A stretch of 49,007 bases of DNA from Flavobacteriaceae bacterium (GTDB taxonomy: Bacteria > Bacteroidota > Bacteroidia > Flavobacteriales > Flavobacteriaceae), in assembly GCA_002697255.1 (NCBI GenBank), contig NZUH01000018.1, forward strand, positions 26,393 to 75,399. The letters run 5' to 3'. A model generated the notes under the pieces. It was not told the DNA's origin. It did not search any database and was given only the letters and a program-made list of their open reading frames with translations. Of the stretch, positions 37,883 to 43,525 are shown in pieces (position 1 is the stretch's first letter; each line of letters starts with the position of its first letter). The translations under genes were made by a program, and so were the position numbers.

Positions 37883-38416
37883 TTATTTTACAGGTACAGA
37901 AATAATAGTATTTCCCCAGCCCATCTTTAATGTCATATCTTTATCAAACATCATTGAAAAAGCTTCAATATTTTTCTCTGATTTTGAGGTTTTTGCTGAA
38001 ACTCGAATAACATCTTGATCTTTCTTATAGTAGTATGAGCCCCAAATATTTGTAGCTCTATTGATAATTATGATCCAATCTCCTTCTACAGAAGGTATTG
38101 TAAATAAAGAATAAGTACCTGCCTTTAATGGTTTATCACCAAAAACAACATCCTTATAAAATGTGATTTCTGCCGCTTCATTTGCCCCCGTTCTCCAAAT
38201 TTTATTAGGAGTTGCTAGGTCAAATAGATCTCTTCCTTTCAATTGTGGACGGCTGTAGATTACTTTAGCTATTTTATCGGATATTTTATAACTACTAGGA
38301 AATGTCGCTTTGTCCATTGGGCTTTTGTCTAAGCTTTTAAATTCTTGCGCGGTTAGTTGTAATGTGCTAATTAATGTAATCACAAAAACAAGGATGGTTA
38401 AAATTGAATTTTTCAT
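37883..38416 (-). CDS. DUF2911 domain protein (secreted)
   Basis: IKVIYSRPQLKGRDLFDL-type motif (AKVIYSRPQLKGRDLFDLATPNKIWRTGANEAAEITF..PLKAGTYSLFTIP) typical of DUF2911. Confidence 0.9.
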   Translation of the reverse strand: MKNSILTILVFVITLISTLQLTAQEFKSLDKSPMDKATFPSSYKISDKIAKVIYSRPQLKGRDLFDLATPNKIWRTGANEAAEITFYKDVVFGDKPLKAGTYSLFTIPSVEGDWIIIINRATNIWGSYYYKKDQDVIRVSAKTSKSEKNIEAFSMMFDKDMTLKMGWGNTIISVPVK

Positions 38417-38430
38417 AATATATTTTAAGT

Positions 38431-38493
38431 TAATATATCTACAAGTTAGTGAAAAAGTTGTTTATGGTTTATCTTATGTAGCTCTATATTTAA
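38431..38493. repeat. Intergenic repeat copy A
   Basis: TAATATATCTACAAGTTAGTGAAAAAGTTGTTTATG identical over 36 bp to copy B, similarity continues ~25 bp further. Confidence 0.9.
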
Positions 38494-39143
38494 TCTGGAT
38501 TACAATTTGTAAAGTTCGGCTTCTTGGATTCTGGCCAATTGGTTATGCCACCAAAAAAACCATTGCAATTAGTTACATTAGAAACATCCCATTCACTTAA
38601 GTCCATTCCTTCAATATATTTTTCTCCGTTATTAGAAAAAAATAGCATACCCATTTCGGTAACATTACTTACATCCCAATCATTAATGTTGGGATTAATA
38701 GTGTCTAAAACGAAACCAGCTGAAATATTTGTAAAATTACTCGTATCCCAATTTCTAAGATCTGATTCAACCGGCATACTTGAATAAAATATTCCTTGGA
38801 CGTCATTAAAATTGCTGACGTCCCAACTTTCAATTCCTTTGATAGGCACAAAACCAACTCCTGAGACATTAAAAATAGCAGCAAACTGAGAATCTGTTGT
38901 GTCACTAACTAAAGTTGTCACAACTTTACTAAAATCTTGTCCAGTATTTATCCATTCTTTCAAGGAAGCTAAATCAACAGCAGTATAAGTTTCCCCATTA
39001 AGATTTCCTGTTGTTCCAACGGTAACCCAACTCCTTGCTTTAATCGTTACTCCATTGTCTGTAAAATAAAATGGTAATTCCTCATCATCACTACTACAAT
39101 TAAAGACAAGTGGAATAAATAGTAATAGTATTAGCTTTTTCAT
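38490..39143 (-). CDS. BspA-like (DUF285) surface lipoprotein
   Basis: Repeats WDVSNFNDVQGIF / WDTSNFTNISAGF / WDVSNVTEMGMLF / WDVSNVTNCNGFFGG; lipobox LVFNCSS. Confidence 0.9.
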   Translation of the reverse strand: MKKLILLLFIPLVFNCSSDDEELPFYFTDNGVTIKARSWVTVGTTGNLNGETYTAVDLASLKEWINTGQDFSKVVTTLVSDTTDSQFAAIFNVSGVGFVPIKGIESWDVSNFNDVQGIFYSSMPVESDLRNWDTSNFTNISAGFVLDTINPNINDWDVSNVTEMGMLFFSNNGEKYIEGMDLSEWDVSNVTNCNGFFGGITNWPESKKPNFTNCNPD

Positions 39144-39169: not shown

Positions 39170-39724
39170 TTATTTAATAGCTTGAATATATTCTATTTCT
39201 AAATTAAATTCCCCCTGTTGTTTATCAGAAATATGAAGGCTCAATGAATTTATTTTATCAAGATTTAAAGCTGGATAATCAGAGTAGGTATATCCTCTCC
39301 AGGTTGCTTTAAAGCTTTCAACTGGAAGTTTTACAATTGTCCATTCATTTTTTTGGGATTTAAAATCACAAGAATAAGAAACACGCATATTTTTTTGCCT
39401 AAACCTTAGTTTATAATTATTTCCATCACCCTTAAATTTAATTTCAAAAAACTTTACACCATTAAGATTTTTCTTTCGTATATCCATTCTTGACGAAGCA
39501 AACCCCCCATTGTTTTCAAGAGATAGATATCCTTTAAAAATTAAGTGCTTTGAGTCGTTAATTAAAACATAAGATTTTGAAATACCACCCATAACATCAT
39601 CGTTGACGATACTCCAGTTTTTTGTTCCGATATTTTTAGACGGATTAATTAAATCAAAATTCTGAGAGCAAATTGGGATTTCAAAAAATAAAAAAATAAA
39701 TAGTGTTAGTATCAGCTTTTTCAT
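39170..39724 (-). CDS. CIA30 domain secreted protein
   Basis: NWSIVNDDVMGGISKSYVLINDSKHLIFKGYLSLENNGGFASSR CIA30 signature. Confidence 0.9.
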   Translation of the reverse strand: MKKLILTLFIFLFFEIPICSQNFDLINPSKNIGTKNWSIVNDDVMGGISKSYVLINDSKHLIFKGYLSLENNGGFASSRMDIRKKNLNGVKFFEIKFKGDGNNYKLRFRQKNMRVSYSCDFKSQKNEWTIVKLPVESFKATWRGYTYSDYPALNLDKINSLSLHISDKQQGEFNLEIEYIQAIK

Positions 39725-39737: not shown

Positions 39738-39821
39738 TTAGTTGAAGAATAAAAGATATGGTATCATTACAGCAAGAAAACCTGCGATAATAGCGAGAAT
39801 AAATTTTTGATTTTTTTTCAT
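39738..39821 (-). CDS. 27-aa single-TM microprotein MKKNQKFILAIIAGFLAVMIPYLLFFN
   Basis: Complete ATG-TAA frame in an otherwise empty gap; same CATACAATATGAAAAA 5' context as neighbouring genes; basic N-terminus plus hydrophobic helix. Confidence 0.6.
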   Translation of the reverse strand: MKKNQKFILAIIAGFLAVMIPYLLFFN

Positions 39822-40153
39822 ATTGTATGTTGTAAGATTATTATACCTAAAATAAGATATGCTAAAGCAGGAAGAATTTCAGAAATATTATCTTTTATTT
39901 TAAGTCTGACATAAACAGCTACAAGCATCATTATTATTAAAATTGCAGAGCTAAAAATTAGAACAGTATTTAACTTTAGCCCAATTAGTATTCCTATTCC
40001 ACAAGCTAATTGAAAACTACCAATCTCTTTCCTTCTTTTTTCTAATCCCCATCTTCTAAATTCCAAAATCATTTTATTTGAAATAAAAGAATTTACACCA
40101 TAAGCAATAAAGGATATTGATGTGAAAACTATAATTATATTATATATGTTCAT
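39818..40153 (-). CDS. DoxX-like small integral membrane protein
   Basis: ~4 TM, RRWGLEKRRKEIGSFQLACGIGILIG DoxX-like pattern; ATG at 40153 overlaps the upstream gene's stop (TAATG); ORF-track end is 40168. Confidence 0.65.
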   Translation of the reverse strand: MNIYNIIIVFTSISFIAYGVNSFISNKMILEFRRWGLEKRRKEIGSFQLACGIGILIGLKLNTVLIFSSAILIIMMLVAVYVRLKIKDNISEILPALAYLILGIIILQHTI

Positions 40154-40497
40154 TAAATTAAACCACAATTAAACGAAGCAATAAACAGAGACATAATCAA
40201 AAATATTAGTGATGGAACGAACTTGATAAAAGGGTTTTTAACTTTTATATGAGACAGTTGTGCGCACAACATAAAGAAGGCCATTGATAAGGACGCATAA
40301 ATTGTAATTTCATTATACCATAAGCCAAGTATTAATAATGTTGAAGTTGATGTTTTTGCCACCCCAACAAAATTTCTTAACAGGTCTGAATATCCATAAT
40401 GTTTAAATTCAACTACAATTTTATCATATCTAATAATCCAAATGATAAGAACTGAAATTGCAACGATCAATTGAAATGCTACTGAAATATTTTCCAT
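40153..40497 (-). CDS. DoxX-like small integral membrane protein
   Basis: VVEFKHYGYSDLLRNFVGVAKTSTSTLLILGLWYN; ~4 TM. Confidence 0.65.
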   Translation of the reverse strand: MENISVAFQLIVAISVLIIWIIRYDKIVVEFKHYGYSDLLRNFVGVAKTSTSTLLILGLWYNEITIYASLSMAFFMLCAQLSHIKVKNPFIKFVPSLIFLIMSLFIASFNCGLI

Positions 40498-41056: not shown

Positions 41057-41185
41057 ATGAGATTCTTTATTACATTTTCAGTAATTTGTTCTATCTATCG
41101 AATTTTATTTGGAAAATCTGAAAATACTTTACAATATGTAATAGCGATAATATGTTTATTAATAACAATTTGCAAAATTAATTAA
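41057..41185 (+). CDS. Possible 42-aa membrane microprotein MRFFITFSVICSIYRILFGKSENTLQYVIAIICLLITICKIN
   Basis: ATG-TAA frame on the plus strand in an intergenic gap; two hydrophobic segments; no other support. Confidence 0.3.
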   Translation: MRFFITFSVICSIYRILFGKSENTLQYVIAIICLLITICKIN

Positions 41186-41723
41186 GAAAAAGGGGTTTTA
41201 GCTTGACCTCTCCGTCTGTACAAAGTGAGTAAGTTTTATTTATTTCTAATGAATTAATATCAATTGGGCCTTGTCCGCTTAGTGATATAAGCTTCTCAAA
41301 GAGTAGATTTCTTTCTTGCATATTATTTGTAATGAATTCCAATTCATTTAGGAAAGCATTTTTAATAGCCCAACCATTTTTAAATCTTATCTCAATCCAA
41401 TCTACTTCATAGTTTTTACTAGATAAGTATGTTAGTAATTCAAGTGTGTTTTCAAAAGATAAGTTCATTTTATGTTGTGGATATACCTTTTTAGACTTCC
41501 TATTTTTTGCGCTCTTTTTTCGGTAATGTAAAGTCAGGTTGTGAATACTGAGATGTTTAAAATGAATGAGCATAGATATTCTGTCAAAATTATTATTGAA
41601 TTTAACGGTAAAACTCCTATGGGTGCCTTTTTGCAATTTGTTAGGATCGTCCATGTCTGCTATCCACGGAGAATATCTTAATGCTATAGTTTTAAATAAT
41701 ATATATTCTTGACTATCTTTCAT
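41178..41723 (-). CDS. Hypothetical protein
   Basis: 181-aa ORF, overlaps start of 41720..43525 by 4 bp, same strand. Confidence 0.65.
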   Translation of the reverse strand: MKDSQEYILFKTIALRYSPWIADMDDPNKLQKGTHRSFTVKFNNNFDRISMLIHFKHLSIHNLTLHYRKKSAKNRKSKKVYPQHKMNLSFENTLELLTYLSSKNYEVDWIEIRFKNGWAIKNAFLNELEFITNNMQERNLLFEKLISLSGQGPIDINSLEINKTYSLCTDGEVKLKPLFLN

Positions 41724-43525
41724 TCATAGTATAGTTTATCATTTTTATCTTTAAAGGTCATCATAAGCTCAAAACAAAGTTGATCAATGTTTCCTTGAAA
41801 TGGATTAAAAGCCGAAACATTTGAAAGAATTACTAATCCTATTTTATTTTTAATGTCTAAAGCCATTGAGGAAGTATACCCTCCAGTTCCGCCGTTATGC
41901 CAATGCCATTTATTTTCTGATTTTTCAGAGTTTATAATATGCCAACCAAGACCAACGTCTATTTGTTCATTCACTTTAATTGTCTTTTCTTTCAATAAGT
42001 TTAATTCAATATTTGACTCGTCAAAATGAGCAACTCCATACTTAACTAAATCTTCAACATTAGATAAAATTCCCCCAGCACTAACCATTGCTGAAAGATC
42101 CCAATTAGCCGTCTCCCTACCGTCTTTATTAAGACCATTAACAAGTCTTATATCGGCCTGTTCAGCATTAAGAAATGTATTCTGCATTTTGTATTTTGAG
42201 AAAATAACTTGTTTAACTAAATCTTCATAACTCATTTCATATATTTCGCTTATTGTGTAACCTAATATGCCAAAACCTAAATTTGAATATGAAGAATCTC
42301 CGATAGCATTTTTATCAATCTCCAAAAAGTTTATTAGATAATCCTCTAAATCATCATTATCATAGTATTTGTATGGGTTATCATCTAAATTTCTCAGATT
42401 AACAAGCTTTTTCTTTTCAGCTTTAGCCAATATTTCGATTATATGATAACCAAAAACTGTTTCTACAATATCTATAGAACCAATTTCATTGTTAAAAGAG
42501 AAATCCCTGAACTCAGGGGCAAATCCATCAAATATCGTAAATTCAATTTCTCCAAATTCATTGCCAACCTCTGTGTCAGATGAAAAGCTTAAAAATGATT
42601 CGAATTTTACATTATTTGTGATTATTTCTGAAAATATGCTGTCTGCTCTTCTTTTTGCAGAAAGCTTTGTATTTTGAACATCCTCGCTACTTGCTAACGC
42701 ATCTTTATAAGGAATTAAGATGTGTCTAACCTTTACTATGTCGGCTGAATCAAGTTTCTCAATCTCAAAGTTAGTAGGCATCCGCGGAAGTCCTGAAGTG
42801 TGATTAGCCAGGCTCTTAAATGAAATCCTATTATCATTATTTAATTTTATATTTAAATAGTCGTTAATATAATCAGCAAGTTTTATCTTATTATCGATTG
42901 CCGCTTTTGCTAATAAATTTGCAGTAAATACTTTTGTAATTGAACCAATTTCAAAAATATGCTGATTGTTATTTATGTAAACAATCGAATCATTTTTTCG
43001 TTTTATTCCGTAATAATTTACATTATCTCCGTTTATAAATGCCAATGAAATTTCAGTATTATTAGGGAAGTATTTGGACTTTTCAAAAATTAATTTAGTT
43101 TGATTTTTAGACATTATTTTATCATTATTTGATAAACTATTTATCGCTAAGCCTGCAAGAATCTCTTCTTTAAATGTGTCAAAGTAAAAAACATCGCCTA
43201 TTTTTTTATTATCATTAATTGAAAACCTGTATTCTGAAACCCAGTTTTCAAAAGTCAATTTATAAATTGAGATATTATTTTCTTCTCTAATAAATTCATT
43301 TGCAGAAATTTTACCTGCATTAGAATTTAAATTTTTAAGAAAATCTGTTAACTCGTTAATCGGTAATATTGTTTTAGTTTCTGGCGAAAATAATTTAAAA
43401 ATGGACTTATAATCATCAGAGTTATAGGCTTCTATAAAACTATCAACTAATATCCTGGATTCAGCTTTTTCATCTTGACTCAGCATTGTAAGAGGAATAA
43501 ATAGTAATAGTATCAGCTTTTTCAT
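41720..43525 (-). CDS. Secreted beta-lactamase-fold serine hydrolase with nested parvulin (PpiC-type) domain and N-terminal DUF3887-like domain
   Basis: Serine hydrolase motifs GSITK (residues 194-198), NHTSGLPRMP, SYSNLGFGILG (412-422), HWHNGGTGGYTS; parvulin motifs VRHILI, RRADSIFSEI, FESFLSFSSD, FGEIEF, FAPEFRDFSF..EIGSIDIVETVFGYHIIEIL (about residues 262-370). Confidence 0.92.
   Translation of the reverse strand: MKKLILLLFIPLTMLSQDEKAESRILVDSFIEAYNSDDYKSIFKLFSPETKTILPINELTDFLKNLNSNAGKISANEFIREENNISIYKLTFENWVSEYRFSINDNKKIGDVFYFDTFKEEILAGLAINSLSNNDKIMSKNQTKLIFEKSKYFPNNTEISLAFINGDNVNYYGIKRKNDSIVYINNNQHIFEIGSITKVFTANLLAKAAIDNKIKLADYINDYLNIKLNNDNRISFKSLANHTSGLPRMPTNFEIEKLDSADIVKVRHILIPYKDALASSEDVQNTKLSAKRRADSIFSEIITNNVKFESFLSFSSDTEVGNEFGEIEFTIFDGFAPEFRDFSFNNEIGSIDIVETVFGYHIIEILAKAEKKKLVNLRNLDDNPYKYYDNDDLEDYLINFLEIDKNAIGDSSYSNLGFGILGYTISEIYEMSYEDLVKQVIFSKYKMQNTFLNAEQADIRLVNGLNKDGRETANWDLSAMVSAGGILSNVEDLVKYGVAHFDESNIELNLLKEKTIKVNEQIDVGLGWHIINSEKSENKWHWHNGGTGGYTSSMALDIKNKIGLVILSNVSAFNPFQGNIDQLCFELMMTFKDKNDKLYYE

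Follow-up and report, generated by a model that had tools for sequence, protein, structure and literature searches.

Can a complete prolyl isomerase domain lie inside the catalytic domain of a secreted hydrolase, and if so, where did it come from and what might it do there? The question is raised by a 601-residue open reading frame (P0001) at positions 41720..43525 on the minus strand of the window, a 49,007-nucleotide stretch of a Flavobacteriaceae contig. The first-pass annotation had described the product as a serine hydrolase of beta-lactamase fold with a parvulin nested in it. Re-reading of 41720-43525(-) confirmed the frame, strand and length as well as the motifs, namely SITK with Ser195, NHTSGLPRMPTNF, SYSNLGFGILG with Tyr413 and HNGGTGGYTS.

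Architecture of the hydrolase-parvulin protein

Pfam recognizes each of the three modules that had been claimed, DUF3887, hydrolase and parvulin, with a score over the gathering cut-off. A putative signal peptide was read by eye from the sequence (MKKLILLLFIPLTMLS, residues 1-16, 43478..43525; all coordinates of this gene refer to the minus strand). It is followed by the DUF3887 domain (PF13026, residues 28-109, 43199..43444; 42.1 bits against a gathering score of 31.8, E 1.4e-10), which is common to the uninterrupted homologs L003, L004 and L014. The family PF00144 (E 2.3e-33, 116.2 bits against 27) matches in two stretches, the better one at residues 411-575, and significant matches were also obtained for PF13616 (Rotamase_3, residues 259-368, E 1.8e-16, 61.1 bits against 22.5) and PF00639 (Rotamase, E 7e-9, 37 bits against 21.7), families that the annotation had named for such a search. 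Consistent with membership in PF00144, the SxxK, YxN and H/KxG motifs follow each other in order. The protein scores below the NCBIfam cut-offs for class C beta-lactamases (NF033085, 79.2 bits against 415) and for the AmpH D-alanyl-D-alanine carboxypeptidase/endopeptidase (NF007943, 88.6 bits against 266).

Host and insert were compared in an alignment of 18 hydrolases (A1), comprising P0001, the second copy L032 described below and 16 relatives without the insert. All 16 uninterrupted relatives align straight across the insertion site; in L003, NLDLAKVN joins PENPY directly where P0001 has KLDSADIVKVRHILI...KKKLVNLRNLDDNPY. In genome searches the host matches are split in two, the first ending at about residues 252-260 and the second starting at about 377-383, and in genome G240 host matches 4-259 and 382-593 are separated by 3 bp. 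With PF00144 matches on both sides of the parvulin, this bears out an insertion into a fold, as had been claimed, and not an end-to-end fusion. The first part of the hydrolase (residues 131-259, 42749..43135) holds the SITK motif (Ser195/Lys198, 42932..42943) and, directly ahead of the insertion, HTSGLP (residues 242-247, 42785..42802). The second part (residues 382-590, 41756..42382) holds the YSN motif (Tyr413/Asn415, 42281..42289) and HNGGTGGY with His543 (41876..41899), the third catalytic motif in place of KTG. The named residues and HTSGLP are invariant in 18/18 aligned hydrolases. Between the two parts lies the insert (residues 260-381, 42383..42748); a parvulin had rightly been placed at 42416-42742 (residues 262-370), and the uninterrupted relatives show the true insert to be slightly wider. 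The flanking motifs are indeed normally only a short loop apart, with about 15 residues from HTSGLP to NPY in uninterrupted DUF3887-hydrolases. The insertion appears to have taken nothing away from the host, and at the level of sequence both folds are complete and the insert joins its host cleanly and in frame. Overall, the predicted product is a serine hydrolase with the class-C beta-lactamase/D,D-peptidase fold, secreted and interrupted by a complete parvulin domain.

Aligned with solved class C enzymes, residues 187-262 pair with chain positions 53-127 and residues from 412 onwards with positions from about 147-149. We infer that the insertion lies in the loop after HTSGLPxxP, a few residues past class C Gln120, a residue that touches the ligand in the class C enzyme MOX-1 (PMC8713471). 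This agrees with the earlier proposal of a parvulin over the loop bordering the active-site cleft as far as the position of the loop is concerned, while the geometry itself is a deduction from the alignment. The two junctions share no direct repeat of more than 7 nt, so we propose no mechanism of insertion.

The insert retains most of the parvulin pocket. His268 (RHIL, 42722..42724) and His361 (FGYHIIEIL, 42443..42445) occur in all 51 PpiDs compared and in the inserts of both P0001 and L032. Asp317 (42575..42577), by hand alignment the equivalent of Pin1 Cys113, is Glu in L032. Across the 51 PpiD parvulins 21 positions are invariant, 18 of which, Asp317 and Phe339 among them, are retained in the window insert and 17 in that of L032. 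Both inserts, which differ at 27% of residues, hold the histidine pair, Phe339, Gly359 and most pocket positions expected of a parvulin. A PDB search with profile A3 gave parvulin matches down to E 3.5e-14 (SurA) and 3.6e-13 (PrsA). AlphaFold2 models, built from an alignment of two sequences only and so too shallow for conclusions, reached a pLDDT of 30 for the whole protein and 59 for the insert alone, for which Foldseek returned no parvulin match.

Second copy and origin of the insert

A sparse peptide-pattern scan of genome contigs found a homolog with the same insertion point, the kind of relative that the first-pass annotation had suggested looking for. L032 has the same architecture and identical junctions at 70% identity over the whole protein, and Pfam recognizes both folds in it too. 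It derives from a Flavobacteriaceae metagenome-assembled genome (isolate SFB_18D_100_41; G378) of a genus different from that of the window. Its contig has a G+C content of 33%, close to the 34% around the PpiD gene of G378, so misbinning is not indicated. The hybrid is carried by 1/21 genomes in the genus of the window and 1/19 in that of G378. Family samples of 301 and 400 genomes, an order sample of 398 and a draw around G378 yielded no third hybrid; the samples overlap, and about 500 genomes of the family are among those searched. Scans of viral contigs with P0001, A1 and A3 found no relatives, and a plasmid collection yielded only distant hydrolases, with about 31% identity over part of the protein among the best matches. 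That the hybrid gene moved between genera is the simplest reading.

The surroundings of the two copies were read as well. Upstream of L032 the translations indicate a two-component system, while the neighbors in the window are small secreted proteins. Directly downstream of P0001 a 181-residue frame without a Pfam family (41178..41723, minus strand) has a 4-nt overlap (ATGA) with the stop of the hydrolase gene and is therefore probably co-translated; no counterpart was seen in the short stretch covered downstream of L032. Near-identical signal peptides (MKKLILLLFIPL, MKKLILTLFIF) occur on the unrelated secreted neighbors 38490-39143(-), 41720-43525(-) and 39170-39724(-), and two overlapping tandem frames encode DoxX_2 proteins (39818-40168(-), 40153-40497(-)). 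Genus relatives of a DUF2911 neighbor (37883-38416(-)) reach at most 40% identity, which suggests an accessory character for this region of the contig.

A comparison of the window copy with L032 gives a dN/dS of 0.118 in the insert, similar to the two hydrolase halves (0.091 and 0.143), and of 0.298 in the N-terminal part; these values are approximate since dS is high (0.9-1.4). The inserts are 73% identical without an indel. Hydrolase and parvulin parts both appear to be under purifying selection; for the insert this could mean only that it has to fold without spoiling its host. With a second copy, purifying selection and parvulin matches in the PDB, the observation is far beyond chance.

The parvulin tree pairs the two inserts with each other (100/100) and places them within the main group of Flavobacteriaceae PpiDs, away from those of the genus of G378. 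As the stem leading to the inserts is long (1.04) and many forks of the tree are open, the donor is traced only as far as Flavobacteriaceae PpiD. The best non-hybrid matches to the insert in genome searches are parvulin domains within frames of about 700-740 residues; those scanned with Pfam, the PpiDs of the window genome (P0002) and of G378 (L050), have a SurA-like N-terminal domain (SurA_N_2) and are PpiD-type, whereas P0001 lacks this domain. By its domain content P0001 is not a PpiD, although its parvulin would descend from one. As a single clade among the PpiD parvulins of Flavobacteriaceae, the two inserts point to one transplantation from a PpiD-type gene. The parvulin had been called PpiC/SurA-type; the tree and Pfam refine this to a PpiD-type Flavobacteriaceae domain inserted once.

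Possible roles of the nested parvulin

All catalytic motifs of the hydrolase, the two parvulin histidines and most other pocket residues are, judged by alignment, kept in the hybrid. Our preferred reading, held tentatively and at somewhat less than an even chance, is that a PpiD-derived parvulin was inserted once into the hydrolase loop, spread to at least two genera and binds proline segments beside the cleft. The domain would have passed from the gene of a Flavobacteriaceae PpiD-type periplasmic chaperone into the surface loop after HTSGLPxxP of a secreted serine hydrolase with a DUF3887 domain, and at least two genera would later have acquired the hybrid. The protein would work at the cell surface or in the periplasm, where its parvulin may bind, and possibly isomerize, proline-containing peptide or protein segments beside the active-site cleft. 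The parvulin may thereby present or select substrate for the serine hydrolase, putatively an acyl-enzyme of the D,D-peptidase, esterase or peptidase type. We give peptide binding more weight than catalysis because the parvulin of E. coli PpiD is reported to have no detectable PPIase activity (PMC2956729) and Pin1 tolerates loss of both histidines, as cited in PMC2678132. The E. coli domain is also reported to be dispensable for PpiD to rescue surA skp cells, and a role in peptide binding has been suggested for it (PMC2956729). The two parvulin histidines can be structural and are not strictly catalytic (PMC2678132).

A parvulin folds autonomously, with its N and C termini close together. It may simply have landed harmlessly in a surface loop, with no role beyond folding cleanly, which we consider rather unlikely. 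Such domains are separable, as the chaperone function of E. coli PpiD and SurA is independent of them (PMC2956729), and the PpiD of the window genome (P0002, also L002/L065; G000:C9:40578-42725) shows that a pocket can be lost while the gene stays open and otherwise conserved. In its parvulin domain P0002 is about 50% identical to its congeners, while the remainder of the protein reaches 53-68%; in other congener pairs the parvulin domain is conserved as much as the rest or more. Both histidines are replaced (now Ser and Met), Asp317 has become Pro and Ser315 Phe, with scaffold positions retained; the histidines are intact in 16/16 other genus members having a PpiD. The same decay argues against a mere passenger, as an unneeded pocket can be lost, yet both histidines, Phe339, Gly359 and most pocket positions persist in inserts that differ at 27% of residues. 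The window genome also encodes two more proteins (544- and 454-residue frames) with two parvulin domains each.

Alternatively, the insert could be a built-in folding helper, a cis version of PrsA that isomerizes prolyl bonds of its own host or of neighboring periplasmic proteins; we regard this as unlikely. The insert adjoins Pro247, Pro250 and Pro384, conserved in the 18-sequence alignment. According to PMC6858329, PrsA is needed for PBP2a-mediated resistance in Staphylococcus aureus, and the chaperone domain of SlyD sets a precedent for a helper inserted beside an active site (PMC11013033, PMC5034536). However, insert-free relatives with the same prolines fold anyway.

Very doubtful is a proline-directed, substrate-selecting lid acting in cis that took over a role from PpiD and so let the pocket of P0002 decay. 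L050 keeps both histidines despite the hybrid in the same genome, by which we rejected PpiD decay in both insert-bearing genomes; we therefore claim no causal link between the hybrid and the decay of P0002.

An assembly or binning chimera of a hydrolase with a piece of PpiD has a probability close to nil and is refuted as far as the present data go. In its favor one could cite the state of the window genome (84% complete, in 33 contigs) and the metagenomic source of L032. However, a species of another genus has the same architecture at 70% identity, the junctions are identical in two independent assemblies, the frame runs seamlessly across them and the insert was not copied from the PpiD of either genome (38% and 27% identity).

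Comparison with known systems

Each module is known. Our searches of genomes, solved-structure sequences and literature did not turn up the nested combination, in line with the first-pass annotation, which knew of no described family of this kind. In the main text of PMC13114784, a survey of domain insertions from 2026, neither parvulins nor lactamases are mentioned. Natural nested insertions that keep the active-site residues of both enzymes are test cases for the origins of multidomain enzymes. In the present case the host is known without its insert, the donor family has been identified and two diverged hybrids are available, so the benefit of the insertion is directly measurable. If the parvulin does gate the hydrolase, this would be a new way to give a beta-lactamase-fold enzyme substrate choice.

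The closest relatives of the host are Flavobacteriaceae DUF3887-serine hydrolases (PF13026 + PF00144; L003, L004, L014). They share the N-terminal domain and the catalytic motifs at 40-48% identity but have no parvulin in their stretch of about 15 residues from HTSGLP to NPY. Flavobacteriaceae PpiDs (SurA_N plus parvulin) have the same pocket residues, with parvulin domains 41-54% identical in the aligned set, but there the domain belongs to a SurA-like chaperone and not to a hydrolase. With class C beta-lactamase/D,D-peptidase-type enzymes (AmpC, 2qmi, 3ozh), P0001 has in common the fold and the order of SxxK, YxN and third motif; it differs in having HNG for KTG, in the nested domain and in scores far below the NCBIfam cut-offs. 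SlyD, with its insert-in-flap domain (PMC5034536, PMC11013033), likewise carries a folding-related domain inserted beside the active site, but in SlyD a chaperone domain lies in a prolyl isomerase, whereas in P0001 a prolyl-isomerase domain lies in a hydrolase.
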